From assembly GCA_017514525.1 (NCBI GenBank), contig JAFWJY010000198.1:1-33411 (forward strand): DNA of 33,411 bases. Direction: 5' to 3'. This document shows positions 3,204 to 32,136 of this stretch, piece by piece. The stretch comes from Solobacterium sp. GTDB lineage: Bacteria; Bacillota_I; Bacilli_A; Erysipelotrichales; Erysipelotrichaceae. Numbering within the stretch: the stretch's first letter is position 1; every line of letters begins with the position of its first letter. Both the position numbers and the translations under genes were made by a program. Under the pieces are notes generated by a model. It ran no database searches and was not told where the DNA came from. It worked only from the letters and a program-made list of their open reading frames with translations.

Positions 3204-3217
3204 GAGGTACCATTGCC

Positions 3218-3994: not shown

Positions 3995-4023
3995 GGGATA
4001 GAAAAAGTTAAGGAGAAAACAGA

Positions 4024-4899: not shown

Positions 4900-4908
4900 A
4901 ACAGCGGT

Positions 4909-4933
4909 GCCGGATGAGGATTTCTCATCCGGC
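4909..4933 (+). other. Intra-operon hairpin between hbd and bcd
   Basis: A perfect 10-bp stem GCCGGATGAG/CTCATCCGGC with a GATTT loop. No T run follows, so it is not a standard terminator. It could stabilise or process the operon mRNA, giving different levels of thl-crt-hbd and bcd-etfBA messages; that function is inference. Confidence 0.7.
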
Positions 4934-4970
4934 TTCACTGCGTACATAAAAATTTGGAGGAACAGAAAGT

Positions 4971-6131
4971 ATGGATTTCCAATTGGATCAGCAGCACGAA
5001 ATGGCTCGTTCACTCTTCCGTGAATTTGCCGAAAAAGAAGTGAAGCCTCTCGCAATTGAAACCGATGAAACAGAAGTATTCCCGCGTGAGACCGTCACAA
5101 AAATGCAGAAATACGGGTTTATGGGGATTCCCGTACCGAAAGAATACGGCGGACAGGGCTGTGACCCGCTGACTTATGTCATGTGTGTTGAAGAGCTTGC
5201 CAAGGTATGCGCTACAACCAGTGTTATTGTCAGTGCTCATACATCCCTGTGCATTGACCCGATTCTCACCTATGGCACCGAAGAACAGAAGCAGAAGTAT
5301 GTCGTACCTCTGGCAAAAGGGGAAAAGCTTGGCGCATTTGCGCTGACCGAACCGGGTGCCGGAACCGATGCCCAGGGTGCACAGACCAAAGCGGAATTTG
5401 ATGAAGCGACAAATGAATGGATTCTCAACGGCTCCAAGTGCTTTATCACAAACGGTAAGGAAGCAGATATCTATATTGTTGTTGCCTATACCGATATTGT
5501 CGAAGACAAGCGCGGCCGCAAGCAGAAGCGTTTCTCTACGTTTATCGTCGAGAAGGATACACCGGGCTTTACCTTCGGTGTAAAGGAAAAGAAGATGGGC
5601 ATCCGCGGCTCTTCCACCTATGAACTGATTTTCCAGGACTGCCGGAGTCCGAAGGACAACCTGCTTGGTGTCCGTGGCAAAGGCTTCGCCAATGCCATGC
5701 ATACCCTGGACGGTGGGCGTATCGGTATCGCTGCACAGGCCCTTGGCATTGCGGAAGGCGCACTGGACCGCACGATTGCCTACGTCAAGGAACGCAAGCA
5801 GTTCGGCCGTTCCATTGCCCAGTTCCAGAACACGCAGTTCCAGCTTGCCAACATGGCAACACAGATCGAGGCTGCACAGCTGCTGGTATACAAAGCTGCT
5901 GAGGCAAAGCGCACACAGTCTGTCTACAGCGTTGAAGCTGCCAAGGCGAAGCTGTTTGCGGCAGAAACAGCGATGGATGTCACAACCAAATGCGTACAGC
6001 TCATGGGAGGCTATGGCTACATCCGTGAGTATGAAGTAGAACGCATGATGCGTGATGCCAAGATCACAGAGATCTACGAAGGCACTTCTGAAGTTCAGCG
6101 CATGGTGATTTCCGGCGCGCTGCTGAAGTAA
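4971..6131 (+). CDS. bcd: Butyryl-CoA dehydrogenase
   Basis: An FAD-dependent acyl-CoA dehydrogenase of 386 residues that reduces crotonyl-CoA to butyryl-CoA. Family signatures are AFALTEPGAGTDAQG near residues 124-138, the FAD/acyl-binding GRIGIAAQALGIAEGAL near residue 249, QLMGGYGY near residue 344 and the C-terminal YEGTSEVQR with catalytic base Glu370. It is followed closely by etfB and etfA, the arrangement of the Bcd/Etf complex that, in clostridia, couples crotonyl-CoA and ferredoxin reduction to NADH oxidation (flavin-based electron bifurcation). Whether this one bifurcates is inferred from context. TTTGGAGGA upstream is the ribosome site. Confidence 0.95.
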   Translation: MDFQLDQQHEMARSLFREFAEKEVKPLAIETDETEVFPRETVTKMQKYGFMGIPVPKEYGGQGCDPLTYVMCVEELAKVCATTSVIVSAHTSLCIDPILTYGTEEQKQKYVVPLAKGEKLGAFALTEPGAGTDAQGAQTKAEFDEATNEWILNGSKCFITNGKEADIYIVVAYTDIVEDKRGRKQKRFSTFIVEKDTPGFTFGVKEKKMGIRGSSTYELIFQDCRSPKDNLLGVRGKGFANAMHTLDGGRIGIAAQALGIAEGALDRTIAYVKERKQFGRSIAQFQNTQFQLANMATQIEAAQLLVYKAAEAKRTQSVYSVEAAKAKLFAAETAMDVTTKCVQLMGGYGYIREYEVERMMRDAKITEIYEGTSEVQRMVISGALLK

Positions 6132-6152
6132 GAAAGGGGAATAGAAAATACT

Positions 6153-6941
6153 ATGAAAATAGTTGTTTGTATCAAACAGGTCCCGGATACTGCCGGCGGC
6201 GTGAAATTCAAACCGGATGGAACACTGGACCGTCAGGCGATGCTGGCGATCATGAACCCGGATGACAAAGCTGGTCTTGAAGCAGCGCTTCGCATCAAGG
6301 ATGCGGATCCGGAAAACGTTAAGGTTACCGTTTTGACAATGGGTCTTCCTAAAGCGGATTCCGTTCTTCGTGAGGCAATGGCAATGGGCGCAGATGATGC
6401 GCTGCTCATCACAGACCGTGTGCTTGGCGGCGCGGATACCTGGGCTACTTCTTCCACAATTGCCGGCGCGCTTAAAAACATGGACTTTGATCTGATCATT
6501 ACCGGCCGTCAGGCAATTGACGGTGATACCGCACAGGTTGGTCCGCAGATAGCGGAGCACCTTGGTATTCCGACGATTTCCTATGCAAAGGAAATTCAGG
6601 TCGAAGGAGATTCCGTAATTGTAAAGCGTATGTTCGATGACGGCTACATGATGGTCAAGGCTAAGATGCCGTGCTTAATCACTGCACTGTCCGAACTGAA
6701 TGAACCGCGTTATATGACACCGGGCGGAATCTTCGATGCATTCGCTAAGGATGTCACGGTCTGGGGACGCAAGGATCTTGACGTTGATGATGCTAACATC
6801 GGCCTCAATGGTTCTCCGACCAAGATCGCCAAAGCCAGTGACAAAGTTGCCAAGGGGAAAGGAACAGTCGTTACCCCGGATTCTCCTCAGGATGCGGCAG
6901 ACGGAATCGTCGCCAAGCTCGCTGAGAAGAACATCATCTAA
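6153..6941 (+). CDS. etfB: Electron transfer flavoprotein, beta subunit
   Basis: A 262-residue EtfB beginning MKIVVCIKQVPDT and containing MNPDDKAGLEAALRIKD near residue 35, both hallmarks of the family, plus the ITGRQAIDGDTAQVGPQIAE segment (about residues 115-134). Together with EtfA it carries electrons from NADH to Bcd. Start chosen at ATG 6153 after AGAAAGGGGA. It is 21 bases after bcd and 15 bases before etfA. The similarity to EtfB of the bifurcating clostridial type is a judgement from sequence feel and neighbourhood. Confidence 0.95.
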   Translation: MKIVVCIKQVPDTAGGVKFKPDGTLDRQAMLAIMNPDDKAGLEAALRIKDADPENVKVTVLTMGLPKADSVLREAMAMGADDALLITDRVLGGADTWATSSTIAGALKNMDFDLIITGRQAIDGDTAQVGPQIAEHLGIPTISYAKEIQVEGDSVIVKRMFDDGYMMVKAKMPCLITALSELNEPRYMTPGGIFDAFAKDVTVWGRKDLDVDDANIGLNGSPTKIAKASDKVAKGKGTVVTPDSPQDAADGIVAKLAEKNII

Positions 6942-6956
6942 GGAGGTCCAGAACGT

Positions 6957-8009
6957 ATGGGATTAGAAGAATATAAGGGCGTATTTATTTACGCGCAGCA
7001 GGTGGATAACAAACTGTCCAATATTTCATTCGAACTGCTTGGCAAAGCCAGAGAGCTTGCGGCAGATCTCGATGAGAAAAAGGTAACCGCTGTTCTGCTT
7101 GGATATCAGGTTGGCGAACTGGCTGATAAATTGGCAGAATATGGCGCAGACCGCGTTATTGTAGTAGATGATCCGGAACTGAAGGACTATCGTACAGAAC
7201 CGTATACGCATGCGCTTGCTTCAGTCATCAATGAATACAAGCCGGAAATCATGCTGGTAGGTGCGACTGCGATTGGCCGTGACCTTGGCCCGCGCACCAG
7301 TGCCCGTGTAAAGACCGGACTTACGGCAGACTGCACCAGCCTTGAAATCGGTGACTTCCCACTCACTCCGATTCCAGGCCAGGAACAGAAGCACAAGCAG
7401 CTGCTTATGACCCGTCCGGCATTCGGCGGAAACACCATCGCTACGATTGCCTGCCCGGACAACCGTCCGCAGATGGCAACCGTACGACCAGGCGTTATGC
7501 AGAAAATTGCCCGCATGGAAGGTGCCAAGGCCGAGGTTGTAAATTACAATCCTGGCTTTACACCGAACAACTGCTACGTTGAAATCCTTAAGGTTGTAAA
7601 GGAAGTCTCTGCAATTGCGGACATCGCTGAAGCCAAGATCCTGGTATCCGGCGGCCGCGGCGTTGGCTCCAAAGAAAACTTCAAGCTGCTGGAAGACCTG
7701 GCTGAAGTACTTGGCGCATCTGTTTCCTGCTCACGTGCGGTTGTTGACAACGGATGGATGCCGAAGGAAATGCAGGTAGGACAGACCGGTAAAACCGTTC
7801 GTCCGAAAGTATACTTCGCAATCGGTATCTCCGGCGCGATCCAGCATGTCGCAGGTATGGAGGAGTCGGACTTCATTATTGCCATAAACAAGGATGAAAA
7901 CGCTCCGATCTTCGATGTCGCTGACTATGGAATTGTTGGTGATCTGAACAAGATCGTCCCGCTGCTGACAGAAAAACTGAAAGCAGAAAAGGCGAAGAAG
8001 AGCGCCTAA
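6957..8009 (+). CDS. etfA: Electron transfer flavoprotein, alpha subunit
   Basis: A 350-residue EtfA. The N-terminal domain has LVGATAIGRDLGPR near residue 99 and LTADCTSLEI. The C-terminal FAD domain shows VSGGRGVGSKENF near residue 230, VGQTGKTVRPK, GISGAIQHVAGM and INKDENAPIFDVADYGIVGD, the characteristic FAD-binding blocks. Last gene of the butyryl-CoA operon; AAGGAGGT precedes the ATG and a strong terminator follows. It pairs with EtfB to serve Bcd. Confidence 0.95.
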   Translation: MGLEEYKGVFIYAQQVDNKLSNISFELLGKARELAADLDEKKVTAVLLGYQVGELADKLAEYGADRVIVVDDPELKDYRTEPYTHALASVINEYKPEIMLVGATAIGRDLGPRTSARVKTGLTADCTSLEIGDFPLTPIPGQEQKHKQLLMTRPAFGGNTIATIACPDNRPQMATVRPGVMQKIARMEGAKAEVVNYNPGFTPNNCYVEILKVVKEVSAIADIAEAKILVSGGRGVGSKENFKLLEDLAEVLGASVSCSRAVVDNGWMPKEMQVGQTGKTVRPKVYFAIGISGAIQHVAGMEESDFIIAINKDENAPIFDVADYGIVGDLNKIVPLLTEKLKAEKAKKSA

Positions 8010-8027
8010 TTCAATTCTTATGAAAAG

Positions 8028-8059
8028 CACCAGTCCCTTGAATGAGACTGGTGTTTTTT
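8028..8059 (+). terminator. Terminator of the thl-etfA operon, possibly bidirectional
   Basis: Stem CACCAGTC (8028-8035)/GACTGGTG (8046-8053) is flanked by AAAA on the left and TTTTTT on the right. It sits between converging operons, so it may also serve the minus-strand esterase genes. Confidence 0.9.
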
Positions 8060-8095
8060 GAATCACTTACAGGATGTAAACGGTAGAAGACGTAT

Positions 8096-8863
8096 TCAGA
8101 CTTCTTCCTGAACATAGTTCAGAAATCTGCAGAGTTCTTCGTCCCAGAAGCTCCATTCATGGCCAAGACCTTCGATCTGATCATACTGGTAGTGAAAGTC
8201 AGGGTCATTGAGCTCTTCGGCTGTCTGTCTGACCAGAAGGTTCTTATCAAGCCATGGATCCTCACTGCCGCAGGCATGATAGATTCGCGGCTTTACCTTG
8301 TTTTCGGCAGAAACCTTCTGAAGCAGATACCGGATGCTGTAGGAACTGTTATGGAATTCATCCGCTCCAAACATGCGGATCCGCGGGGTAATCTCACCAG
8401 GTTCCGCTGGTTTGTAAGCTGAGTCTGCTTTATCTCCGGCGGAGAAGGCACCGATTGCCCCAAAGCGTGATGGAAAGGAGAGACCAATCAGCATACATCC
8501 ATATCCGCCGTTGGAAAGACCGCAGATATAGTTATCTTCCCGTTTATCCGAAAGGTGCGGAAACATCTGAACCAGAAGTTCCGGCAGTTCCTTGCCAAGA
8601 TAAGTCCTATAGTTCAGGCCGTACGCCATATCCGCAAAACAGGAATCATTCGCATTGACGATCACTACCGCAAGATGACGGGAGTCAGGTATAGAGGCAA
8701 CAGTGGAATAGTACAGCCATTCATTTTCATCCCCGGAGCCGCCATGACACAGCCACAGCACCTTCAGTGTTTCATCTTCCTTCACTTCATCCGGAAGCAG
8801 GATGCGGCAGTCATTGTACATGCTCAGGATGTTGGAAAAGTGATTCAGCTTAACGGAAATCAT
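8096..8863 (-). CDS. Putative alpha/beta-hydrolase esterase (second of pair)
   Basis: A 255-residue member of the PF00756-type esterase family (tributyrin esterase, S-formylglutathione hydrolase and acetyl esterase relatives). Catalytic triad candidates are Ser117 in GLSNGG, Asp202 in GSEDPW and His235 in GLGHEW; WLCHGGSGDENEW near residue 37 forms the oxyanion region. No signal peptide, so it acts in the cytoplasm. Its start overlaps the end of the neighbouring esterase by 14 bases, indicating translational coupling. The nucleophile elbow GLSNGG differs from the GESMGG of its neighbour, so the two probably differ in substrate. Candidate substrates are short-chain acyl or carbohydrate esters; not provable here. 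Confidence 0.85.
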   Translation of the reverse strand: MISVKLNHFSNILSMYNDCRILLPDEVKEDETLKVLWLCHGGSGDENEWLYYSTVASIPDSRHLAVVIVNANDSCFADMAYGLNYRTYLGKELPELLVQMFPHLSDKREDNYICGLSNGGYGCMLIGLSFPSRFGAIGAFSAGDKADSAYKPAEPGEITPRIRMFGADEFHNSSYSIRYLLQKVSAENKVKPRIYHACGSEDPWLDKNLLVRQTAEELNDPDFHYQYDQIEGLGHEWSFWDEELCRFLNYVQEEV

Positions 8864-9647
8864 TGCCGTTCCTCCCCATGAAGTTTCCTTGTTTCAGTTC
8901 GCAGTCGCAGAACCATGCGAACATTTCTTTCAGGCGCTCATTCCAGTATTGAAATTCATGCCCACCGATTCCCCAGTGTGATATGACATCATAGCCGGTT
9001 TCCGCTGCTGCACAGAAGCGCTGATTAACCGCATACAGGGAATCTTCATTCCCGCAGCAAACAAACAGGCGGGGACGTTTTTCCACAGGCACCGCCTCAA
9101 GCAGCGCAAACGGGTTATACCTCTCTTCGTTTGCGAGTAAGAGATCCGGGCCGAACATGTTCTTCATGTTTACGCCGGGAATCTGTTCCTGAATCGCAAA
9201 GACATCCAGTGCTCCGCTGAATTCCGCGATATTGCCAAAGGTATCCGGATGATTGAGGCCGTTGATTACGGCGCCATAGCCGCCCATGGATTCTCCGGCA
9301 ATCAGCCAGTCTTCCTTCCGCTTTGAAACCCGAAAGTGCTTGCGGATAAACGAAGGAATTTCGATTGAAATGTAATCCATGTAGCGATAGCCATTCCAGG
9401 TATTGATATAAAAGCTGTTTTTACCGGAAGGCATGAACACGAGCACCGGCAGTTCCCGTACCATGTCGGCAATCTGACTTTTCAAGAGCCATTCGGTGCG
9501 GTCATTGTTGGCGCCATGCAAAAGAACGATTACCTTGTATCCTTCCTTCTGAGAAAGAGATTTGTATCCCGGCTGCGGGATCAGAACCTCTGCCTCTACC
9601 GGCATGTTCAGCGCTGATGAACGGAAATTGAATGTTCCCCATGCCAT
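8850..9647 (-). CDS. Putative alpha/beta-hydrolase esterase (first of pair)
   Basis: A 265-residue esterase of the same family as its downstream neighbour. From the chosen start the triad is Ser120 (GESMGG), Asp202 (GNEDS) and His230 (GGHEF), and VLLHGANNDRTEW forms the oxyanion region. A longer reading to ATG 9701 exists, but ATG 9647 has a perfectly spaced GGAGG (9655-9659) and the upstream ATG lies in the -35 element of the predicted promoter; the family also typically begins close to the MAWGTFNF segment. No secretion signal. It is placed between the two butyrate operons but has its own promoter, so a link to butyrate metabolism is only suggested. Confidence 0.85.
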   Translation of the reverse strand: MAWGTFNFRSSALNMPVEAEVLIPQPGYKSLSQKEGYKVIVLLHGANNDRTEWLLKSQIADMVRELPVLVFMPSGKNSFYINTWNGYRYMDYISIEIPSFIRKHFRVSKRKEDWLIAGESMGGYGAVINGLNHPDTFGNIAEFSGALDVFAIQEQIPGVNMKNMFGPDLLLANEERYNPFALLEAVPVEKRPRLFVCCGNEDSLYAVNQRFCAAAETGYDVISHWGIGGHEFQYWNERLKEMFAWFCDCELKQGNFMGRNGNDFR

Positions 9648-9675
9648 AGATGATCCTCCATATCTGTTTGAGACA

Positions 9676-9705
9676 ATGATAGCTTTACGCTCTTCTTCCA
9701 TGCAA
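9676..9705 (-). promoter_or_regulatory. Predicted promoter of the esterase pair
   Basis: On the minus strand TTGCAT (9705-9700) and TATCAT (9681-9676) are 18 bases apart. The implied leader is about 22 bases and contains the GGAGG at 9655-9659. This supports the start codon at 9647. Confidence 0.55.
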
Positions 9706-9717
9706 TGGATGTAACGT

Positions 9718-9745
9718 AAAAAGGCTCCTGCAGTTCAGGAGCCTT
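9718..9745 (-). terminator. Terminator of the ptb-buk-thl operon
   Basis: On the minus strand a perfect 10-bp stem AAGGCTCCTG/CAGGAGCCTT with a five-base loop is followed by a run of T residues (complement of 9718-9722). Confidence 0.85.
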
Positions 9746-9766
9746 AGAGACATGTGTTCTTGTGTA

Positions 9767-10945
9767 TTACCGACGTTCAACGATTGCTGCACAGCCCATG
9801 CCGCCGCCGACACAGAGGGTCGCAAGCCCTTTTTTCGCATCGCGCTTCTGCATTTCATACAGCAGGGAGACGAGAATTCTGGCACCGGTGCATCCGACCG
9901 GATGACCAAGGGCAATTCCGCTTCCGTTGACATTCAGCTTGGAATGATCCCATTTCAGCTCTTTCTCAACCGCAACGGACTGCGCCGCAAATGCTTCATT
10001 TGCTTCAATCAGATCGAAGTCCTCAATCTGATAGCCGGCTTTATCCATTACTTTGCGTGTCGCATAGATCGGGCCAACACCCATGATGCTCGGATCAACA
10101 CCGGCGAGTTCACCGGCTACCCAGTAGGCAAGGGGAGTAATGCCAAGCTCCGTTGCCTTTTCTTCACTCATGACAACAAGTGCCGCAGCGCCATCATTGA
10201 TGCCGGATGCGTTGCCGGCTGTAACGACGCCGTCTTTCTTGAATGCCGGCTTCAGTTTTGCCAAAGCCTCCATCGTCGTGCCCGGACGGTTTCCTTCATC
10301 GGTATCGAATACGATATCACCTTTGCGGGTCTTGATCGTAACCGGTACGATATCATCCTTGAAACGGCCCTCGGCAATGGCCTTTTCTGCCTTGTTCTGG
10401 GATTCTACCGCAAAGGCATCAAGCTCTTCGCGGGTGAGATGCCACTGTTCTGCCACATTCTCTGCCGTGATGCCCATATGGTATCCGCCAAATGCATCCG
10501 TCAGTGCGTCTTTGATCATCGAGTCTTCAACGGTACCTGCGTTCATACGGTAGCCAAAACGTGCTTTGGTCAGCAGGTATGGCGCAAGGTCCATGTTCTC
10601 CATACCGCCGGCAACGATGATGCCCTTATCACCCATGGCAATCAGCTTTGCGGCAAGATTGACGCAATGCAGACCGCTTCCGCACAGAACATTAATGGTA
10701 ATGGCTGGTACTTCTACCGGAATGCCGGCATTGATAGCTGCCTGACGGGCAGGGTTCTGACCGGTACCGGCCTGAATGACATTGCCCATGTAGACTTCAT
10801 CTACCATTTCCGGTTTGATGCCGGCACGGTTCATCGCTTCCTTAATCACAATGGAACCCAGTTCTGCTGCAGGTACATCCTTCAGCGTCCCGCCGAACTT
10901 GCCAATTGGTGTACGGCAGGCACTCGCAATTACTACATTTCTCAT
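9767..10945 (-). CDS. Acetyl-CoA C-acetyltransferase (second thiolase)
   Basis: A 392-residue thiolase that is very close in sequence to the one at 2016-3203. Catalytic Cys88 (NVLCGSG), His348 (ALGHPVG) and Cys378 (LCVGGGMGC) are intact. It is the last gene of the ptb-buk operon, five bases after buk, with AGAGGAA as ribosome site. It likely forms acetoacetyl-CoA like its paralogue; differential regulation, or a preference for acyl-CoA chains longer than acetyl, would be ways for the two to differ. Neither can be decided from sequence. The duplicate reads as functional, not as a decaying copy. Confidence 0.93.
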
Positions 10946-10950
10946 ATGGT

Positions 10951-12036
10951 TTATTCCTCTTCGTTTTCGTAATGCTTTGCGTCTTCTTCGCCGTACAGTA
11001 CACGAAGTGCGCCAAGCGCCAGCGCGATCATTTCGCGCTCGCCCGGAATCGCCACTACCGGTGCGATCCAGCCGACACGCTCTTCAATGCCTTTGACAAT
11101 CTGCTGGTCATAGGCAAGACCGCCGGTCAGAATCGTCGCGTCGATCTTACCGAAGTTTACGCTCGCAAGCGCCGCGATGTCTTTCGCATGCTGGTAGATA
11201 AACGCATCACGGATGATGCGTGCTTTTTCATCGCCTTCTTCAATCCGCTTTTCGACAACCCGCATATCTGCAGTGCCTAAATATGCGACAAGACCTGCAT
11301 CACCAACGGCACGCTTCATCATGTCATCGACAGTCGGATACTTGCCGGAATAGCAGAGACGAATCAGATCACCAACCGGAACTGCACCGGAACGGGTAGG
11401 GGAGAACGCGCCATCGCCATCCAGTCCGTTGTACATATCGATGCACTTGCCTTCTTTGATGATAACGGTTGTACATCCGCCGCCCATATGCGCAACGACA
11501 CAGGTTACTTCATCAAACTTTTTGCCGACAGACTTCGCGTATTCTCTCGTGACAGCACGGATATTCAACGCATGGATCAAAGAGCGTCTTGAGATATCCG
11601 ACATACCGGAAATGCGTGCGACCGGAGTGATCTCATCGACCGCTGTCGGATCAACGATATAGGATGGCTTGCCAAGCGGATCCGCAATCTTGCGGGCAAG
11701 CAGTCCGCCAAGGTTTGCCGCATGGTCGCCATGCAGGGCAATGGTGAGATCGTGAACGATCGCATCATTGACGAGATAGGTGCCAGCTTCAATCGGATGG
11801 AGATAGCCGCCGCGGCCAACGCAGGCATCCAGCTGACTGACGTCATAATTCTGTTCTTTCAGATAGTTCATGATGACGTTGTAGCGGAAGTCCAGCTGAT
11901 CAATGGTTTTCGGAAACTTGGCCATCTCTTCGGAAGGATGTTCCAGAACGGTTTCCGATACTTTCTGATCATCTTCAAACAGCGCAATCTTGGTTGAAGT
12001 GGAACCTGGATTAATTGCCAGAATATGAAATGCCAT
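10951..12036 (-). CDS. buk: Butyrate kinase
   Basis: Transfers phosphate from butyryl phosphate to ADP, giving butyrate and ATP. The 361-residue protein belongs to the acetokinase family: the N-terminal phosphate loop [16 protein letters not shown] (residues 8-23), [11 protein letters not shown] near residue 187, [15 protein letters not shown] near residue 207 and TGGLAYD near residue 299. Length is near 355-360, typical of butyrate kinase and shorter than acetate kinase (about 400). It starts two bases after the ptb stop, with GGAG inside the end of ptb, so the genes are translationally coupled. Confidence 0.93.
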
Positions 12037-12038
12037 GA

Positions 12039-12965
12039 TTATTCTCCTTTACTCCTTGCATGCTCGCTGAGCACCGCTGCCAGGGCAATCGAGTTGACCT
12101 TGACTTCTTTATTGTCAGAACGGCTGGTGAGAATGACCGGAGCCTTTGTGCCAGTCAGAACGTTGCCGTTCTTGATGCCGGGCACCATATGTACGATTGC
12201 TTTATAAACGAGGTTTCCGGCATGGATATCCGGGAAGAGCAGCACATCTGCCTTGCCGGCACATGGTCTGTCCTGAGCGCCTTTTTCAATTGCGGCTTCG
12301 TCATAGAGTGCGATATCGAGAGACAGCGGTCCATCAACGATCGCATCACCGAACTCACCGGCTTCACCGGCCTTGCGCAATTCTTCCGCATCGACCGTTA
12401 CCTGCATCTTCGGATTAACAACTTCAACTGCCGCAAGCGGAGCAATATGCGGCTTCACGACACCGCAGGCACGTGCAACCTCAGCGGTATAGTTGATGAT
12501 TGCTTTCTTGTCCTCCAGTGTCGGGTAGGGCATAAACGCCACATCACTTAAGAATAAGAGGTGATCGATGCCTGGAATCTCAAAGACACAGACATGGGAC
12601 AGCGGTTTGCCGGTACGCAGACCAACTTCCTTATTCAGTACACTCTTCAGGAAATCCTTGGTTGCCAGTAATCCTTTCATATACATGTCGGCTTTGCCGT
12701 CATGTACCAGCTGTACGGCTTTCAGACTGGCCTCAACACTATCCGGTTCGTTTATGATCTGAAACTGAGCCGGATCGATTTTCAGTTCGGAACAGATCTC
12801 ACAGATCTTTGTTTCATCACCGACCAGAATGGCATCCACAATTCCAAGGTTGTGGGCTTCCTGTACGGCTTCCAAAACAGCGGCGTCCTGGGCGCAGGCA
12901 ACAGATAATACTTTCTTGTCACACTGACGCACCTTGGACAAAAGCTCTTCAAATGTTTTACTCAT
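12039..12965 (-). CDS. ptb: Phosphate butyryltransferase
   Basis: Converts butyryl-CoA and phosphate to butyryl phosphate and CoA. The 308-residue protein belongs to the phosphate acetyl/butyryltransferase family; visible blocks include LVGDETKI near residue 47, FLSDVAFMPYPTLEDKKAIINY near residue 138 and DGPLSLDIALYDEAA near residue 208. Length agrees with Ptb (about 300). It is the first gene of ptb-buk-thl, with AAGGAGG upstream of the ATG and a divergent promoter region shared with coaD. The adjacent buk makes the butyryl assignment more likely than acetyl. Confidence 0.92.
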   Translation of the reverse strand: MSKTFEELLSKVRQCDKKVLSVACAQDAAVLEAVQEAHNLGIVDAILVGDETKICEICSELKIDPAQFQIINEPDSVEASLKAVQLVHDGKADMYMKGLLATKDFLKSVLNKEVGLRTGKPLSHVCVFEIPGIDHLLFLSDVAFMPYPTLEDKKAIINYTAEVARACGVVKPHIAPLAAVEVVNPKMQVTVDAEELRKAGEAGEFGDAIVDGPLSLDIALYDEAAIEKGAQDRPCAGKADVLLFPDIHAGNLVYKAIVHMVPGIKNGNVLTGTKAPVILTSRSDNKEVKVNSIALAAVLSEHARSKGE

Positions 12966-16194: not shown

Positions 16195-16869
16195 ATGAAT
16201 CCAGATATCTTAAAACTATTAATAGATTCATTTATGAAGATATTAATGCCAGGCTTACTGGTAACGATTCCCTTAACGGTAATCGCTTTTTCCTTTGCGA
16301 TGATCATCGCAATCATACTGGCTATGGTGCAGGTAGCGGATGTACCGGTATTAAAGCAGTTTGCCCGGTTTTATATCTGGGTGATCCGAGGTACACCGCT
16401 GTTAGTACAGCTGTATGTCGTATTCTTCGGGCTTCCCAGTGTTGGCGTTCGGATCAATGCCTTTCCGGCTGCCGTATTAGTCTTCTCTATTAATGAAGGA
16501 GCCTATTGTGCAGAAACGATGCGAGCCGCAATTGAATCTGTACCGGCAGGGCAAATGGAAGCTGGCTATTGCGTAGGCATGAACTACTACCAGATCATGA
16601 CCCGCATCGTACTACCGCAGGCGTTCCGCACCGCATTCCCGCCATTATTCAACTCCCTGATCGGAATGGTAAAGGATACCAGTCTTGCCGCAAACATTAC
16701 GGTTGCGGAAATGTTCTTTGCGACGCAGCGCATTGCTGGCAGAACCTATCAGTTTATGGCGCTTTATCTCGAACTGGCCTTTATCTATCTGATGTTTTCA
16801 ACTGTATTGACCCGTGTACAGGCATGGGGTGAAAAGAGACTGAACTCTTATGGAGGTAATAAGATCTGA
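16195..16869 (+). CDS. Amino-acid ABC transporter permease (His/Glu/Gln family)
   Basis: A 224-residue integral membrane protein with about five hydrophobic segments, beginning with LMPGLLVTIPLTVIAFSFAM (about residues 16-35). The HisM/GlnP-type coupling region is visible: RGTPLLVQLYVVFFG near residue 66, EGAYCAETMRAAIESVPAGQMEAG near residue 101 and ALPQ-like VLPQAFRTAFPPLFNSLIGMVKDTSL near residue 138. It forms the channel of a polar amino-acid importer. The stop codon overlaps the ATPase start by one base. No solute-binding protein gene is adjacent. Confidence 0.88.
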   Translation: MNPDILKLLIDSFMKILMPGLLVTIPLTVIAFSFAMIIAIILAMVQVADVPVLKQFARFYIWVIRGTPLLVQLYVVFFGLPSVGVRINAFPAAVLVFSINEGAYCAETMRAAIESVPAGQMEAGYCVGMNYYQIMTRIVLPQAFRTAFPPLFNSLIGMVKDTSLAANITVAEMFFATQRIAGRTYQFMALYLELAFIYLMFSTVLTRVQAWGEKRLNSYGGNKI

Positions 16870-17618
16870 TGGCGATGCTGGAAGTAAAAGACTTGCATAA
16901 GAGTTTTGAGAACACGGTTGTACTGGATGGTGTCAGCCTTTCTGTTGAAAAGGGAGATGTTGTTGCGATTCTGGGACCCTCCGGTGGGGGAAAGACAACC
17001 TTCCTTCGCTGTATCAACTTTCTGGAACGGGCAGATTCCGGCACGTTTACCTTTGATGGGGTAACCCATGATCTGGCACATATCAAAAACCGTGAAATCA
17101 GCCAGATTCGCAAAAAGACCGGATTTGTATTTCAGAACTACAATCTCTTCCGGAACAAGACAGCGCTCCAGAATGTAACGGAAGGCCTGATCGTAGCCCA
17201 TAAGGTTGAAAAAAAGAAGGCCGAGGACATCGGCATGCGCATGCTGGAAAAGGTTGGCATGGCGGATAAAGCCTCCAACTATCCAAGCCAGCTGTCTGGT
17301 GGCCAGCAGCAGCGTGTCGCAATTGCCAGAGCGCTCTCAGCTGATCCGGAAATCATCTATTTTGATGAACCGACTTCAGCGCTGGATCCGGAACTGATCG
17401 GTGAGGTGCTCAGTGTCATGCGCAATCTCGCGGAAGAGGGTATGACAATGATCGTTGTCACCCATGAAATGGATTTTGCGAAGAATGTATCTTCCCGTTC
17501 CATCTTTATGGAACATGGACATATTGTAGAAGAAGGGGAATCCGCTGCCTTCTTTGCCAATCCGAAAATGGAACGTACCAGAGAATTCCTGCGGATGGAA
17601 GCGAACCGCGGCATCTAA
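16869..17618 (+). CDS. Amino-acid ABC transporter ATP-binding protein
   Basis: A 249-residue ABC ATPase that energises the preceding permease. Walker A GPSGGGKTT (36-44), the Q loop FQNYNLF near residue 87, signature LSGGQQQRVAIARAL near residue 141, Walker B IIYFDEPTSALDP near residue 162 and the switch VVTHEMDF near residue 197 are complete. The family is the GlnQ/HisP type. GGAGGT (16852-16857) lies 11 bases before the ATG. The substrate cannot be read from the ATPase. Confidence 0.93.
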   Translation: MAMLEVKDLHKSFENTVVLDGVSLSVEKGDVVAILGPSGGGKTTFLRCINFLERADSGTFTFDGVTHDLAHIKNREISQIRKKTGFVFQNYNLFRNKTALQNVTEGLIVAHKVEKKKAEDIGMRMLEKVGMADKASNYPSQLSGGQQQRVAIARALSADPEIIYFDEPTSALDPELIGEVLSVMRNLAEEGMTMIVVTHEMDFAKNVSSRSIFMEHGHIVEEGESAAFFANPKMERTREFLRMEANRGI

Positions 17619-17660: not shown

Positions 17661-18998
17661 ATGAAATATACATCCTTTCAGGAGATCATTGAACAGGGAA
17701 AACAGAACTACGGTGATGCGCCGGCAGTGCGTTTTATTAATTCTTCTGGCATGCTTCATGAACTGTCGTATAACCAGCTCTATGAACGCGTTATGGACCG
17801 GGTACAGCGGCTGAAGGAAACCAACTGCAGCTGTGTGGGCATCTATGGCCCGGCATCCCCGGAATGGATCATTGACTTCTTTGCGGCACCGATTGCCGGC
17901 AAGCGCACTGTTCTGCTTGATCCTGCAATGACCCGTGAGGAAACTCAGAGACGGATCACAGATTTTGAGATCGAAGCGGTATTGCCTTCCAATGTCGGCT
18001 TTATGACCGTAAAGGAAGGGACTGCCTCCAAAGAGGCCTGTGGAGACATCCTGGTGTTTTCCAGCGGTACGACCTCTGCAGACAAAGCGGTTGTGCTTTC
18101 TCAGAAAGCTCTGGCTTATTCTGCCTGGAATGGACAGCAGATGCTGGCATGCGGAAAAGATGACGTCATTGTGGCAATGCTGCCGCTGAATCATGTGTTT
18201 GGCCTGGTCTGCACCGTATTATGGCCATTGTGCAATGGCGCAGTTACAGCGCTGGGCCGGGGCATGCGCTACTATACCGAAGACCCTGCGGCATACCATA
18301 CAACGATTCTGGTTATGGTGCCGACACTGCTGAATTATCTGCTTGCGACGGAAAGCTTCAGCACGGAATGCCATACGATTCTGCTTGGCGCAGCTCCATG
18401 CAGTGAACGCGTGTTCCAGGCGATCCGTGAAAAGAAGATACGCCTCAGCTATGGCTATGGCCTGAGTGAAACCGCAAGCGGACTGGCAATCTCCGTCGAT
18501 GCGGAAGATCCTGCCGCACTGGATCTCTGCCCGGATACGAAAATCACGATTGCGGAGGATGGCGAAGTGCTCGTTGAAACTCCGTGCATGATGGAAGGCT
18601 ACTGGCGAAAGCCGGAGGATACGGCTGCCGTGCTTCAAAACGGTGTTCTGCATACGGGCGATCTTGGCGAACTGGATGAGCAGAACAGACTACACCTCAA
18701 GGGCCGCAAGAATGATGTGCTCGTATTGTCCAACGGCGAGAAGGTTTATCTGCCGGAGGTGGAACAGAAGCTCAACGAACTGCTGGACGAGGAAGTGGCA
18801 CTGGTGCTGCTGTATGATACCCTGACTATTGTTGTCGGGCACAATAAAGATGCGGACGCAGTGAAACAGGCTGTGGATCAGTTCAATGAAACCCAGCCTC
18901 TCAGCAAACGCATTATGAATATCAGAGTGATTGAAGGCTCGCTGCCGCGAACAGCGACCGGTAAACTGAAACGCTGGAAATTGGAGGAACTACTATGA
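17661..18998 (+). CDS. AMP-dependent acyl/aryl ligase of the ANL superfamily
   Basis: A 445-residue adenylate-forming enzyme that would activate a carboxylic acid as acyl-AMP and load a CoA or ACP thiol. Visible motifs are the P-loop LVFSSGTTSADKAV (131-144), PLNHVFG (175-181), YGYGLSET (264-271), HTGDLGELDE (331-340), Arg349 in LKGRKND and the C-terminal PRTATGKLKR with catalytic Lys435. It is shorter than typical acyl-CoA ligases (about 500-550), mainly in the N-terminal domain. It overlaps the ACP gene by four bases (ATGA), which makes the ACP the likely acceptor. The acid is unknown. The start appears leaderless: no SD and a -10 element just upstream. Confidence 0.88.
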   Translation: MKYTSFQEIIEQGKQNYGDAPAVRFINSSGMLHELSYNQLYERVMDRVQRLKETNCSCVGIYGPASPEWIIDFFAAPIAGKRTVLLDPAMTREETQRRITDFEIEAVLPSNVGFMTVKEGTASKEACGDILVFSSGTTSADKAVVLSQKALAYSAWNGQQMLACGKDDVIVAMLPLNHVFGLVCTVLWPLCNGAVTALGRGMRYYTEDPAAYHTTILVMVPTLLNYLLATESFSTECHTILLGAAPCSERVFQAIREKKIRLSYGYGLSETASGLAISVDAEDPAALDLCPDTKITIAEDGEVLVETPCMMEGYWRKPEDTAAVLQNGVLHTGDLGELDEQNRLHLKGRKNDVLVLSNGEKVYLPEVEQKLNELLDEEVALVLLYDTLTIVVGHNKDADAVKQAVDQFNETQPLSKRIMNIRVIEGSLPRTATGKLKRWKLEELL

Positions 18999-19255
18999 CA
19001 GACCAGGAAATGATGGATGAACTGCTGAAGATTATTCATATCTGTCTGCCGGAAACGGAAACGGAATCCGTTACGCCGGAAACCGTAATCAATCGTGATC
19101 TCGGTGCGGATTCCATGAGCTTTGTCATGTTAATGACGAAGATTGAAGCCCGCTTTAACATTCGTGTACCGGAAGATACCTGGCAGAACCTTGCGACGGT
19201 ACAGGATGTAATGGATGCGATTCGCAAAGCGCAGAAGGAAGCAGCTAATGCCTGA
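18995..19255 (+). CDS. Free-standing acyl carrier protein
   Basis: An 86-residue acidic ACP. The phosphopantetheine attachment motif is LGADSMSF with Ser40; the flanking helices show ACP-like spacing (INRDLGADSMSFVMLMTKIE). DSM replaces the DSL of housekeeping fatty-acid ACPs, which suggests a dedicated carrier. Its start overlaps the ligase stop (ATGA) and its stop overlaps the thioesterase start by eight bases, so it is fixed in stoichiometric context with them. It should receive the acyl group from the ligase after being modified by the AcpS encoded two genes downstream. Confidence 0.9.
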   Translation: MTDQEMMDELLKIIHICLPETETESVTPETVINRDLGADSMSFVMLMTKIEARFNIRVPEDTWQNLATVQDVMDAIRKAQKEAANA

Positions 19256-19976
19256 GGCATATCGGCGTACCATTACGATTACTTCGTCCGATTGCGATCG
19301 ATTTCAGCGCCTGCGTCATTCGGCGCTGTTTTCCATTCTGCAGGAAGTGAGTATCCGTGATGTGGAACTGGGCGGACTGACCCGGGACAAAACTCTGGAT
19401 AAGGGCTTTCTCTGGGTGATCTCCCGGATGAAGATCACGATGGAGCGGCCAATTCTTTATGGCGAAACTGTAACGGTATTCACATCTCCCGGCGACCGTA
19501 TGCACATGGTATTCCCGCGGTTTTACCGGATCGAAGATGAGCAGGGCGAAGTGATTCTGCGGGGTTCTGCGCTCTGGACGCTGATCCATGCGGACAGCCG
19601 CATGCCGATTTCTCCAGAGGCGGAACACATCGAAATCCCGGGCATTGCGGAAGAAGGCCGCATTGAGGTGCCGATGGGGCTGAAGCCAGTGCTGTCTGAT
19701 CAGCCTGCCAGCATCCGTACGGCGCTGTTTTCGGATATCGATCTGAACGGGCATATGAACAACACCCGCTATCTTGACTGGATGGATGATCTGTTTGACC
19801 TGCATTTCCATGAGGTGACAAAGATCGAATCCATTCAGATCAACTATGTTCATGAAGTGGAATATGAAGATAAAGTGTCGCTGTTTTATGAATATAACGG
19901 CGGGCATTACCGGGTCGATGGCAAGACGGCAGACCATACGGTATTTTCTGCCGATATCCAGGTGCGCAAGAAATGA
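19248..19976 (+). CDS. Acyl-ACP thioesterase (FatA/FatB-like)
   Basis: A 242-residue double-hotdog protein of the PF01643 type that hydrolyses acyl-ACP to free acid and ACP. The first hotdog contains SDCDRFQRLRHSALFSILQEVS near residue 14; the second has the catalytic segment DIDLNGHMNNTRYLDWM with Asp165, Asn167, His169 and Asn171. The start was moved to ATG 19248, which follows AGAAGGA and gives the usual N terminus; an upstream in-frame ATG lies inside the ACP gene. The next gene overlaps by four bases. In this operon it could release or edit the acyl group on the adjacent ACP. Confidence 0.88.
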   Translation: MPEAYRRTITITSSDCDRFQRLRHSALFSILQEVSIRDVELGGLTRDKTLDKGFLWVISRMKITMERPILYGETVTVFTSPGDRMHMVFPRFYRIEDEQGEVILRGSALWTLIHADSRMPISPEAEHIEIPGIAEEGRIEVPMGLKPVLSDQPASIRTALFSDIDLNGHMNNTRYLDWMDDLFDLHFHEVTKIESIQINYVHEVEYEDKVSLFYEYNGGHYRVDGKTADHTVFSADIQVRKK

Positions 19977-20308
19977 TCGGCGTCGATATTGTTGATCTTT
20001 CCCGGATCGATCCGGAGGATGCGGCGTTCGTACGCCATCTTCTGACACCGGCAGAGCAGGAGGAATTCCATGCCCGCAAAAGCGCGCATCGGAAGACGGA
20101 ATATCTTGGTGGGCGCTTTGCGGCGAAAGAAGCGATCTTCAAAGCGACTGGCGACCAGATGTTTCTGTCTTATTCCATACTGACTGAAGTCTCTGGCAAA
20201 CCGTATGTCAAAGATCATCCGGAACTCGATGTCTCCATCTCGCATGACGGGGGCTTTGCGATTGCGGCTGTTCTCTGTCTGAAGCCGCAGAAAGGACTGG
20301 CAAAATGA
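19973..20308 (+). CDS. acpS: Holo-[acyl-carrier-protein] synthase
   Basis: A 111-residue phosphopantetheinyl transferase that moves 4'-phosphopantetheine from CoA to the ACP serine. MIGVDIVDLSRI holds Mg-binding Asp5, GRFAAKEAIFKA holds Glu53, and VSISHDGGFAIA lies at 87-98. The length is slightly short of the usual 115-125. ATGA overlaps occur on both sides. It may serve the operon ACP, the ACP domain fused to enzyme I at 30187 and the fatty-acid ACP; which ones cannot be seen. Confidence 0.93.
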   Translation: MIGVDIVDLSRIDPEDAAFVRHLLTPAEQEEFHARKSAHRKTEYLGGRFAAKEAIFKATGDQMFLSYSILTEVSGKPYVKDHPELDVSISHDGGFAIAAVLCLKPQKGLAK

Positions 20309-21213
20309 ACAAACAGGTTGTGGAAGCGGAAGGAAAACAGGTACTGCCATATCTGGCACAGCGTTTTCAGCAGCTCTATTTAAAACCGGAACCGGAAGGA
20401 AATCCGCTCTACCGCAGTGTTGTGCTGGCAGGGGAGGATGCGCCTTCGCAGGACCTGTCACACTTTGTGATGGATGAACGCGACAGCTGTGTACTTCTCG
20501 ATACTCCAGCCGGTTCAGTGCGGGCCGTAACGCTCCATCATCGCTCAGACTTTGAGACTGCCCTCAACTGCATTGCCATGAAGACCAGGGTGACAGAGAT
20601 TCCTGCCACGCAGGGTGCTTCGATTCTTGACGGCGTCATCAGCTGGCCGAAGATCAAAGCCCATGAAGAGGAATACCGCAAGACGGCAGATGACTGGGAT
20701 GAGGAATTCGGCCGTTTTACAAAGGATAAGAAAAACTATACCGAGGCTTTGATCCTGCTGTCCTATGGACCATACAGTGCCGTAAAGCCTGAAGCAGTTG
20801 GCTATGAACCGGAGGCGTGGAACCGGTATTCCGATCTGATCCGCCGGTATCACGAGTGCACGCACTTTGTCTGCAGGCGCCTGTTTCCAGATCAGATTCA
20901 TGCGATCTGGGATGAACTGGCTGCGGATGCGGCAGGTATCCTTGCGGCATTTGGAAGCTATGATCGCGCGATGGCGGAAGTATTCCTTGGCATCGAAGGG
21001 GAACACTATACCAAAGGGCGTCTGGAAAACTATGTCGAAGACAAAGATCCTGAGAAGCTGAATCAGCTTGCCAAAGAAGTACATGGAATTCTGCTGAACA
21101 TTGAAAAATTGCTGAAGGAAAATACCGTTAGCGATGTATTTGAAACCGTAATTCTGCTGGAAGAACACCAGAAGGAATTTCTGAAGGATACTTCACTTGC
21201 ACAGACCGCTTGA
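20305..21213 (+). CDS. Unassigned protein with HExxH motif, last gene of ACP operon
   Basis: A 302-residue soluble protein that I cannot name with certainty. It contains HECTH (183-187) followed by DELAADAAG (203-211), resembling the zinc-binding HExxH plus downstream glutamate of gluzincin metallopeptidases; the two histidines and Glu204 would be ligands and Glu184 the catalytic base. The surrounding block, with Tyr182 before the motif, the RRLFPDQIH segment and AAFGSYD, looks conserved, and I recall it from domain-of-unknown-function families. There is no signal peptide. The start overlaps acpS by four bases. Peptidase activity is a hypothesis; the same motif can occur in non-peptidase hydrolases. 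Confidence 0.7.
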   Translation: MNKQVVEAEGKQVLPYLAQRFQQLYLKPEPEGNPLYRSVVLAGEDAPSQDLSHFVMDERDSCVLLDTPAGSVRAVTLHHRSDFETALNCIAMKTRVTEIPATQGASILDGVISWPKIKAHEEEYRKTADDWDEEFGRFTKDKKNYTEALILLSYGPYSAVKPEAVGYEPEAWNRYSDLIRRYHECTHFVCRRLFPDQIHAIWDELAADAAGILAAFGSYDRAMAEVFLGIEGEHYTKGRLENYVEDKDPEKLNQLAKEVHGILLNIEKLLKENTVSDVFETVILLEEHQKEFLKDTSLAQTA

Positions 21214-21245: not shown

Positions 21246-22109
21246 ATGAACAAACGAACAAAAATGATACTTGTCACTGCAGGAATCTATATTGCGATAT
21301 TTCTGATCCTGGCTCCGTTTGACTATCCGTTCTCGGAGTTTTTGACCAGTCACGCCAATTCGTGGTTCATCGCATTCGGTGCCCGGCTTGGCCCGTTGCC
21401 TGCCGCGCTTGTTTGCGGCTACTGCATTCTTGCGCTTGGAACGATCCGTGAGAAGTGGTATCTGTACCGGGTTGCCGCCATCGCAGTGATTGCCGTAGCG
21501 GCGTTTAATATCCTGAAACCGGATCTCAGTTCCCTGTTGGAGTTTCTGTTTATGACGGTGCTGTGGGCCATCATGTTTGCAGCGATACGGATGATTCCGA
21601 CTCCCGAGAATACCAATGCCAACGAGCATATTCTTCAGTTTGGAATTCTGGTTACTCTGATCTCATCCGGGCTTGTTCAGCTGCTGAAGCTGCTGTGGGG
21701 AAGACCGCGCTTCTATGCGCTGCAACTGTTTGGTCTGGACTTTGTGCCGTGGTATCGTGTGGCAGGCTTTGCCATGCGTTCGGATGCTTTTCGAAGCTTC
21801 CCAAGCGGTCATACCGCTGGCGCAGCTGCTATCTTCTTTCTGGTCTTTCTGACCCAGCTGTTTCCAAAGCGGTTTGTGCGGCGATGGAAGCTGTGGGTGG
21901 TTGCGGGTATCTATACACTGATCATCGCCTCGACCCGAATCATGGCCGGCATGCATTTTCTGTCTGATGTCATGGGTGGCTGCGGCGTTTACCTTCTGAC
22001 TATGGTGATCCTTGCGGCGCTGTTTCAGCGAAACGGCATTGATATCTGGGCAGAACTGGAACAGGAGGAACTCAATGATGAAAAATCAATGGAAAACAAA
22101 ACTGCTTGA
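21246..22109 (+). CDS. Membrane-bound PAP2-family phosphatase
   Basis: A 287-residue membrane protein with several hydrophobic segments. The three PAP2 (type 2 phosphatidic acid phosphatase) motifs are present: KLLWGRPRF near residue 148 (KxxxxxxRP), PSGHTAG near residue 184 and SRIMAGMHFLSD-like STRIMAGMHFLSD near residue 231 (SRxxxxxHxxxD pattern). It probably dephosphorylates a lipid phosphate or undecaprenyl pyrophosphate at the membrane. Translation is predicted at ATG 21246; the ATGs at 21234 and 21237 lie inside the -10 region. The next gene begins inside its 3' end. Confidence 0.88.
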   Translation: MNKRTKMILVTAGIYIAIFLILAPFDYPFSEFLTSHANSWFIAFGARLGPLPAALVCGYCILALGTIREKWYLYRVAAIAVIAVAAFNILKPDLSSLLEFLFMTVLWAIMFAAIRMIPTPENTNANEHILQFGILVTLISSGLVQLLKLLWGRPRFYALQLFGLDFVPWYRVAGFAMRSDAFRSFPSGHTAGAAAIFFLVFLTQLFPKRFVRRWKLWVVAGIYTLIIASTRIMAGMHFLSDVMGGCGVYLLTMVILAALFQRNGIDIWAELEQEELNDEKSMENKTA

Positions 22110-30186: not shown

Positions 30187-32136
30187 ATGGAACGATTTGC
30201 GTTCTTAAAACAATTAGTAATGAACTACACCAGTCTTCCGGAAGATTTCTCACCGGATTCTCCATTTGCCTCAATCGGCATGGATTCTTATGATGTGGTG
30301 GATTTCATGTTAACGGTTGAGGAGAAGTTCGGCATTACCGCAAATGACGAAGAAATTCTCTCCATGAACTGCATCCGCGATGTAGAGGAACTGATCACAA
30401 ATTGCATGAAGGAGGATAAAGCAATCATGCTTAAAGGTATTGCCGCTTCACAAGGAATCGCTATTGCGAAAGTCTACAAACTGGAACAGCCGGTGCTCGA
30501 CATTCAGAGGGTCGAATCAGACCCGGATCAGGAACTTTCCAAGCTTGACGCTGCCTTTGCCAAAACGGTAGAAGACATCGAAAAGATAAAGGAAGTCGCT
30601 TCCAAGAGCCTCGCTCCGGAAGAACTGGCTGTGTTTGATGCACATCTGATGATGGCAGGGGATCCGGAACTTCGCACACAGATCGAAGACATGATCAAAA
30701 ATGACAAGGTCAATGCCGAGTATGCGACCGAACAGGTTGCCAATATGATGGTATCGATCTTTGAATCCATGGAAGATGCCTATATGAGAGAGCGCGCAGC
30801 TGACATCAAGGATGTTACGTTCCGTCTCAAGTGCAATCTCTGCGGCAAGGTTATTCCGAATCTCGCAACACTGGATTCTCCGGTCGTTGTGATTGCCAAG
30901 GACCTCACACCGAGTGACACCGGTTCTCTGAACAAGGAATTCGCAAAGGGTTTCGCAACTGAAATCGGCGGCCGTACCAGCCACAGTGCCATCATGGCCC
31001 GCTCCCTTGAGATTCCGGCAGTGGTAGGCGTCAAGGGCATCCTTGAAGCCGCAAACTCCGGCGACGAAGTTATTCTCGATGCGCTCAACGGGGAAGTGAT
31101 TCTGAACCCGACCGAAGCTCAGAAGGCAGAATATGCGGCCAAGGGTGAAGAATACCGCAAGCAGAAGGAAGCTCTTAAGGCACTTAAGGATCAGCCGTCT
31201 GTTTCCACAGATGGACACAAGGTGCTGTTAGTCGGCAACATCGGCGGACCGAAGGATGTGGATGGCGTCAATGCCAATGGCGGCGAAGGCGTAGGCCTGT
31301 TCCGTACCGAATTCCTCTACATGAAGAGTGAAGACGACTTCCCGGATGAAGATACCCAGTTCGCTGCTTACAAGCAGGTGCTTGAAGGCATGAATGGCAA
31401 ACCGGTTGTGATCCGTACGCTGGATATCGGCGGTGACAAGAAGCTGAAGTACTATGAGTTTGCGGAAGAGATGAACCCGTTCCTCGGTGTTCGCGCCGTT
31501 CGTTTCTGTCTCATTCGCAAGGATGTATTCCGCACTCAGCTCCGCGCACTCTTACGTGCTTCCGTATATGGCAAGCTCTGCATCATGTTCCCAATGATCG
31601 CAACGGTCAATGAGTTCAAAGAGGCAAAGCAGTGCTATGAAGATGCACGTGCAGAATTGATCGCAGAAGGCGTCAAGGTTTCTGATGATATCGAAGTCGG
31701 CTGTATGATTGAGATCCCGGCAGCAGCCGTACTGGCTGACCAGATTGCCAAGTATGCAGACTTCTTCTCCATTGGAACCAACGACCTCGTTCAGTACTCC
31801 ATGGCTGCAGACCGTATGAGTGAACCGGTATCCTACCTGTACCAGCCGTTGAACCCGAGTGTTCTGCGTCTGATCAAGATGACGATCGACGGTGCACACA
31901 AAAACGGCAAGTGGTGCGGCATGTGCGGTGAAATGGCTGGCGATGAACTGGCTGCACCGATCCTGCTTGGACTTGGACTGGATGAGTTCTCCATGAGCGC
32001 AACATCTATTCTCCGTGCCCGCCAGATCATCAACTCATTGAGCTATGAAGAGATGAAATCACTTGCGGCCAAGGCAGTTGAATGCGACACCAGCGAGGAA
32101 GTAACCGACCTCGTAAAATCCGTACTCAAGGCATAA
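30187..32136 (+). CDS. ptsI: PTS enzyme I with an N-terminal acyl carrier protein domain
   Basis: A 649-residue fusion. Residues 1-78 form an ACP domain: FASIGMDSYDVVDFMLTVEE with phosphopantetheine-site Ser34 in the GMDS motif, and a helix IV region ending VEELITN. From Met81 (MLKGIAASQGIAIAKVYKLEQ) follows a full enzyme I of 569 residues: phospho-histidine His266 in GGRTSHSAIMAR, GEGVGLFRTEFLYM, PEP-site GTNDLVQYSMAADR and the C-terminal CGMCGEMAGD. It transfers phosphate from PEP to HPr. The reading frame is open through the joint. AAGGAG lies eight bases before ATG 30187. No ptsH gene is adjacent. The ACP domain lacks any HPr feature. Confidence 0.9.
   Translation: MERFAFLKQLVMNYTSLPEDFSPDSPFASIGMDSYDVVDFMLTVEEKFGITANDEEILSMNCIRDVEELITNCMKEDKAIMLKGIAASQGIAIAKVYKLEQPVLDIQRVESDPDQELSKLDAAFAKTVEDIEKIKEVASKSLAPEELAVFDAHLMMAGDPELRTQIEDMIKNDKVNAEYATEQVANMMVSIFESMEDAYMRERAADIKDVTFRLKCNLCGKVIPNLATLDSPVVVIAKDLTPSDTGSLNKEFAKGFATEIGGRTSHSAIMARSLEIPAVVGVKGILEAANSGDEVILDALNGEVILNPTEAQKAEYAAKGEEYRKQKEALKALKDQPSVSTDGHKVLLVGNIGGPKDVDGVNANGGEGVGLFRTEFLYMKSEDDFPDEDTQFAAYKQVLEGMNGKPVVIRTLDIGGDKKLKYYEFAEEMNPFLGVRAVRFCLIRKDVFRTQLRALLRASVYGKLCIMFPMIATVNEFKEAKQCYEDARAELIAEGVKVSDDIEVGCMIEIPAAAVLADQIAKYADFFSIGTNDLVQYSMAADRMSEPVSYLYQPLNPSVLRLIKMTIDGAHKNGKWCGMCGEMAGDELAAPILLGLGLDEFSMSATSILRARQIINSLSYEEMKSLAAKAVECDTSEEVTDLVKSVLKA
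30409..30415 (+). promoter_or_regulatory. Internal Shine-Dalgarno for a stand-alone enzyme I
   Basis: AAGGAGG lies within the last codons of the ACP domain, 11 bases before the in-frame ATG at 30427, which begins exactly where enzyme I proteins normally start. Ribosomes could make the 569-residue enzyme I separately from the 649-residue fusion. Confidence 0.6.

Follow-up and report, generated by a model that had tools for sequence, protein, structure and literature searches.

The 33,411-nucleotide stretch of DNA analysed here (the window; contig JAFWJY010000198.1 of assembly GCA_017514525.1, Solobacterium sp.) carries an operon whose first three genes, for an AMP-forming acyl ligase (LIG), an acyl carrier protein (ACP) and a FatA/FatB-type thioesterase (TE), form a conserved triad that co-occurs across the genus with a homolog of polyunsaturated fatty acid isomerase (PAI) and a CrtI-like flavoprotein, and in relatives is linked to them. 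We read the first four genes of the operon as an acyl-carrier arm belonging to a pathway for the processing of unsaturated C18 fatty acids from outside the cell, a view towards which the balance tips only slightly. The findings suggest an undescribed, carrier-based processing of dietary unsaturated fat in a bacterium with no detectable fatty-acid synthesis machinery.

The operon consists of five overlapping genes (17661-21213), with overlaps of 4, 8, 4 and 4 bases:

17661..18998, + strand: AMP-forming acyl ligase (LIG), 445 aa; PF00501, 2.8e-40, 138.8 bits
18995..19255, + strand: stand-alone acyl carrier protein (ACP), 86 aa; PF00550, 2.7e-8; phosphopantetheine serine S40 (GADSM)
19248..19976, + strand: FatA/FatB-type acyl-ACP thioesterase (TE), 242 aa; PF01643, 1.6e-19, and PF20791, 1.1e-18
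19973..20308, + strand: AcpS-type holo-ACP synthase, 111 aa; PF01648, 3.7e-15, 56.4 bits
20305..21213, + strand: DUF7005 protein, 302 aa; PF22541, 3.4e-46; HExxH at H183-H187 (codons 20851-20865), E204xxxD208

Open reading frame coordinates and profile matches confirm this layout, which an initial annotation of the sequence had given, and the gene content bears out its further claim that the parts suffice to prime an ACP, load it with an acyl group and release that group again, with no elongation. The catalytic motifs are intact. In an alignment with 15 homologs the adenylation motifs of LIG are conserved (the SSGT loop, GYGLSE, TGD, GR and the PRTxxGK lysine, K435), and the enzyme is predicted to load an acid on the ACP. 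Profile searches place it about as close to MenE as to FadD and favour CoA ligases, with all matches far under the curated cut-offs; it is the adjacent ACP that suggests a carrier protein rather than CoA as acceptor. Residues D39-S40-M41 of the ACP are invariant in 15 homologs. Both hot-dog halves of TE exceed their cut-offs (PF01643, 70.3 bits against 23.7; PF20791, 67.7 bits against 21), and 14 homologs share without exception D165-x-N167-x-H169 and E203, which correspond to the catalytic sites of plant FatB; hydrolysis of acyl-ACP is predicted. The AcpS scores over the cut-off of TIGR00556 and under that of TIGR00516 acpS (45.3 bits; cut-off 59.8).

A second species (G022) has these five genes in identical order and between identical neighbours, and there the whole purC-to-rimO order is kept; the arrangement is thus not due to chance. 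A strong LIG homolog is present in 16 of the 36 genus genomes, each time with an ACP and a TE behind it. The gene-order conservation that the initial annotation proposed to check holds for LIG-ACP-TE in 17 genomes, 16 of the same genus and one of another family (including G001, where contig ends split the triad), and partially for AcpS. A tree unites the triad ligases with that of the window in a distinct clade (support 100/100); weak LIG homologs in G040, G297, G278 and G015, and a second one in G032, lie in other contexts, form a separate clade and were set aside. The triads fall into two types, and no searched genome holds both. Type A, that of the window, sits between ABC-transporter genes and a PAP2 gene in six genomes (the window's own, G000, with G001, G007, G022, G023 and G032), and AcpS follows TE at five of these six loci. 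Type B occurs in ten genomes. AcpS also adjoins the pair of genes for the CrtI-like protein and an FNR-type reductase in G005 and G035. The DUF7005 gene lies beside the triad only in G000 and G022, and apart from it in G007, G032, G014 and one Lachnospiraceae metagenome-assembled genome (MAG). Because it stands alone in those four, it is a rider gene, and all five genes as one unit had to be rejected. Of the unit first proposed, LIG-ACP-TE stands as the core, AcpS belongs in part and DUF7005 drops out.

Beyond the operon itself, the neighbours of the type B triads point to a possible function. A 451-aa FAD protein beside them matches PDB 2b9w at 9e-149, an entry named 'putative aminooxidase' by its depositors and which we take to be the PAI of Propionibacterium acnes. 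Other genes nearby encode a 517-aa CrtI-like flavoprotein (crtI_fam 6.8e-26 and carot_isom 1.4e-21, both far under curated cut-offs), a 398-aa FNR/2Fe-2S reductase and a 933-aa GltD-like Fe-S flavoprotein. PAI lies beside LIG at nine type B loci, although in G021 CrtI and FNR lie between them; in a tenth case, G005, both genes are at contig ends in matching orientation. In G021 the genes for PAI, CrtI, FNR, LIG, ACP, TE and the GltD-like protein are all on one strand. The window's genome encodes a PAI too (G000:C266:15467-16819), 88% identical to the LIG-adjacent PAI of G017, and the same contig encodes CrtI (79% identical), FNR and a GltD-like protein. A GntR regulator with an FCD domain and a weak FadR_C match (L188 10638-11351) lies between CrtI and PAI in G000, with a similar protein next to CrtI in several relatives; it is a candidate acyl-responsive regulator of the pathway. 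The PAI-family isomerase and the CrtI-like flavoprotein to which the triad is linked lie outside the window, and so beyond the view of the initial annotation.

Co-occurrence was also counted at the level of genomes. A PAI homolog is present in all 16 triad genomes of the genus and in 3 of the 20 without a triad (Fisher p 1e-7), and the CrtI-like flavoprotein in 14 of 16 versus 2 of 20, both counts uncorrected for kinship. The three PAI genomes lacking a triad are G010, a member of the window's clade with a completeness of 69%, and two whose PAI is of a divergent kind, type 2. Type 1 of the PAI tree comprises 17 genomes, namely the 16 triad genomes and the incomplete MAG G010; type 2 comprises nine, several from other families, and none of these has a triad beside PAI. 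PAI as a sufficient marker of the triad was accordingly rejected. Type-2 PAIs at L210 9313-14674 and L212 9498-14938, both from other groups of bacteria with small genomes, have as neighbours genes for a 969-aa GltD-like Fe-S flavoprotein and for CobW/HypB-like and HypA-like proteins (named by eye, except L210 10717-11373), an assembly that suggests another PAI-linked redox system with no ligase or ACP nearby.

The association is not confined to one genus. A ligase-family search of 392 genomes of the phylum found only one genome outside the genus with a close LIG-family member, G430, which belongs to another family. It carries TE-ACP-LIG at a distance of about 2.5 kb from a gene for a CrtI homolog (61% identical), with a phosphopantetheinyl transferase (PPTase) of the ACPS superfamily also nearby, and in the tree its ligase joins those of the genus triads (100/100), other ligases being well apart. 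LIG-ACP-TE with a CrtI-like protein and a PPTase nearby therefore recurs outside the genus.

No ketosynthase (PF02801) was found by profile search in 35 of the 36 genus genomes, the window's own included, as against its presence in 21 of 24 sister-family genomes and 10 of 14 controls. The operon has no ketosynthase because the genome as a whole has none, and the acid used by the ligase must thus come from outside; a role linked to type II fatty acid synthase (FASII) was rejected on the same ground. G025 is the only genus genome that bears a ketosynthase (L148, G025:C34); FASII may have been acquired or retained there, or the genome may be misplaced. One could suppose that the triad serves to scavenge exogenous fatty acids for membrane lipids, an AasS-like LIG feeding acyl-ACP to acyltransferases while TE trims unwanted chains. 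The lack of a ketosynthase match would fit, as would a DegV/FakB-family gene 0.5 kb downstream of TE in G004 (L137 4631-5542) and the diacylglycerol-kinase-like and PAP2 genes near the operon. However, the triad was not found in 20 of the 36 genus genomes, nearly all of them ketosynthase-free too, so it is not needed merely to live on external fatty acids. Nor would scavenging lead one to expect an association with PAI and CrtI, and a release enzyme would counteract the supply of lipid. We consider this explanation unlikely, and the plain scavenging or editing role that the initial annotation had entertained is a poor fit.

We propose instead a model where AcpS primes the ACP and LIG would activate a free fatty acid with ATP and load it on the carrier. 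Double-bond chemistry would then be carried out by partners encoded elsewhere, which in the window's genome are the PAI, the CrtI-like FAD oxidoreductase and the 2Fe-2S NAD(P)H reductase of contig C266, before TE frees the product and the ACP cycles. Since one of these partners is an isomerase of the PAI family and another a CrtI-like enzyme supplied with an electron donor, the altered bond would be a C=C of an external unsaturated fatty acid. The CrtI superfamily includes enzymes that desaturate, isomerise or, in one case, saturate conjugated polyenes, which makes the reduction of a conjugated diene by the CrtI-like enzyme plausible. In the simplest order, PAI would form the conjugated diene, LIG would transfer it to the ACP, CrtI/FNR would reduce one double bond while the acyl chain is held as an ACP thioester, and TE would release it; such a reduction might serve detoxification or act as an electron sink. 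Stated this fully, as an ACP-tethered biohydrogenation of linoleate in ruminant-gut bacteria without fatty-acid synthesis, the model is tentative, a possible form of the pathway rather than its probable one.

Several observations weigh against the proposed pathway. The PAI of Cutibacterium acnes (PDB 2b9w), of which the window's genome and its relatives hold a clear homolog outside the window, acts alone in recombinant hosts and makes conjugated linoleic acid (CLA) from linoleate when expressed by itself (PMC2885616). ACP loading is thus not required for the isomerase, and the carrier may serve the reductase. Two genomes with triad and PAI, G033 and G004, gave no CrtI match, and G430 gave no PAI match, assuming that it was in the searched sample, as equal sample sizes suggest. 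The sample consists mostly of incomplete MAGs of one genus. Distances of triad and redox genes correlate moderately (rho 0.3-0.6) compared with 0.83-0.87 inside the triad, and LIG is 40% identical between triad types versus 85% for PAI and 79% for CrtI across the clades. In G000 triad and PAI are unlinked (contigs C181 and C266), and the window-type triad, on a long branch, is unlinked from PAI and CrtI throughout its clade. This triad may be a replacement that fills an unchanged role, or it may have a new substrate.

The second possibility is that the window-clade triad loads another acid, whether aromatic, short-chain or a specialised-metabolite starter, and that its co-occurrence with PAI is a lineage effect. 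That LIG is about equally close to MenE and FadD would agree with this, as would the long branch and the missing linkage. Yet none of the genes that recur next to the triad at the 17 loci read is a condensation, peptide-synthetase or obvious acyl-acceptor gene, the thioesterase is of the FatA/FatB type, and the two triad types look like mutual replacements, since no searched genome has both. A different acid therefore seems to us quite improbable, and we retain the processing of unsaturated C18 fatty acids as the preferred reading.

Parts of this arrangement are familiar from described systems. JamABC, which forms the terminal alkyne of jamaicamide, uses the membrane diiron desaturase/acetylenase JamB and feeds a polyketide synthase. 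As in JamABC, a dedicated ligase would load a free fatty acid on a dedicated ACP for a redox change on the carrier; unlike it, and comparing the two by description only, the present set has FAD partners (PAI and the CrtI-like protein), a FatA/FatB thioesterase that would release the product, and a PPTase. AasS of Vibrio and Chlamydia is a lone gene that serves recycling in cells with FASII or the use of host lipids. The predicted ATP-dependent loading of free fatty acid on ACP is shared with AasS, but here a 445-aa ligase shares an operon with an ACP, a TE and an AcpS of its own, in a genome without ketosynthase. The DltA-DltC D-alanyl system likewise has a small AMP-ligase and its own carrier protein in one operon; in contrast to Dlt, no DltB or DltD is adjacent and a FatA/FatB thioesterase is found instead. 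The 517-aa flavoprotein resembles, by its sub-threshold profile matches, the CrtI/carotenoid isomerase/retinol saturase superfamily, but its gene is linked with those for an FNR-type 2Fe-2S reductase and with genes for fatty-acid enzymes rather than with carotenoid genes.

Milk fat is depressed by the trans-10,cis-12-CLA that forms in the rumen, and tracing the microbes behind it has proved difficult. A single C. acnes strain has been reported from the rumen, and searches by several laboratories gave no further rumen strains (PMC11770317, 2024); PAI has been found in MAGs of Lachnospiraceae, Oscillospiraceae and unclassified bacteria (PMC10019597). In a lamb study Solobacterium was among the genera that shifted with biohydrogenation, being lower where biohydrogenation was higher (PMC8355377), which by itself gives no support. 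Papers on ruminal biohydrogenation cover isomerase genes and organisms of the trans-10 route. In the literature searched we came across nothing that connects a ligase, ACP or TE with PAI, and no open-access paper that joins ACP, PAI and biohydrogenation or describes this gene set. A genus with ruminant-gut members that combines a PAI homolog, a candidate conjugated-diene reductase and an acyl-carrier kit offers named genes to test. If the model in its full form is true, it would supply genes for the reductase step of the trans-10 pathway and an example of an ACP used outside synthesis, processing external fatty acids in cells without ketosynthase. It also suggests a native role for bacterial FatA/FatB-type thioesterases.

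The last gene of the operon had been described as an unassigned HExxH protein. The motif is real, and the protein is now assigned to DUF7005, a family without known function. H183, E184, H187, E204 and D208 are invariant in six homologs; the protein is a likely zinc metallohydrolase and, with an ExxxD downstream of its HExxH, a candidate gluzincin-type metallopeptidase. Its suggested part as acceptor or terminal partner of the acyl pathway was not borne out by its occurrence apart from the triad. An AlphaFold model built from three sequences (pLDDT 67) gave no Foldseek match below E 0.6, and sequence comparison gave no match either; against aminopeptidase N and collagenase domains the model reached Z 3.3-4.1 only. 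With no meaningful PDB match, an assignment of function from the fold was dropped.

The operon is flanked by:

16201..17618, + strand: ABC permease and ATPase genes, upstream (PF00528, PF00005), with a 42-base gap to LIG
21246..22109, + strand: PAP2 phosphatase gene, downstream (PF01569, 1.2e-15)

The permease and ATPase genes are likewise present in G022, G023, G007 and G032, and the PAP2 gene is syntenic at all six type A loci. Promoter and terminator scans gave no more matches than in shuffled sequence, and comparison with phage protein families gave nothing informative.

Further along the window, at 30187-32136 (+), an ACP domain whose serine motif reads GMDSYD forms an in-frame N-terminal extension of enzyme I of the phosphotransferase system (PtsI; 649 aa in all), a fusion conserved in five genomes. 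A strong internal Shine-Dalgarno, AAGGAGGA, precedes an ATG at 30427, and free enzyme I may thus also be made from this internal start. We know of no described ACP-PtsI fusion. It is tempting to see in the operon a general acyl-ACP module or acyl sensor, with the cell's sole AcpS and ACP in one operon that also serves the PtsI-fused domain. Only two PP-binding matches occur in the genome, the operon ACP and the fused domain about 9 kb downstream, and the operon AcpS is the only one found. But this genome is a MAG of 2.1 Mb and about 80% complete, the triad, ligase and thioesterase included, is missing from many relatives, and a direct link between the two ACPs would be conjectural; we give this idea very little credence. 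Elsewhere in the window, at 2016-12965, genes named by eye for a thiolase, crotonase, hydroxybutyryl-CoA dehydrogenase, acyl-CoA dehydrogenase, EtfB, EtfA, a second thiolase, butyrate kinase and phosphate butyryltransferase resemble a route from acetyl-CoA to butyrate.

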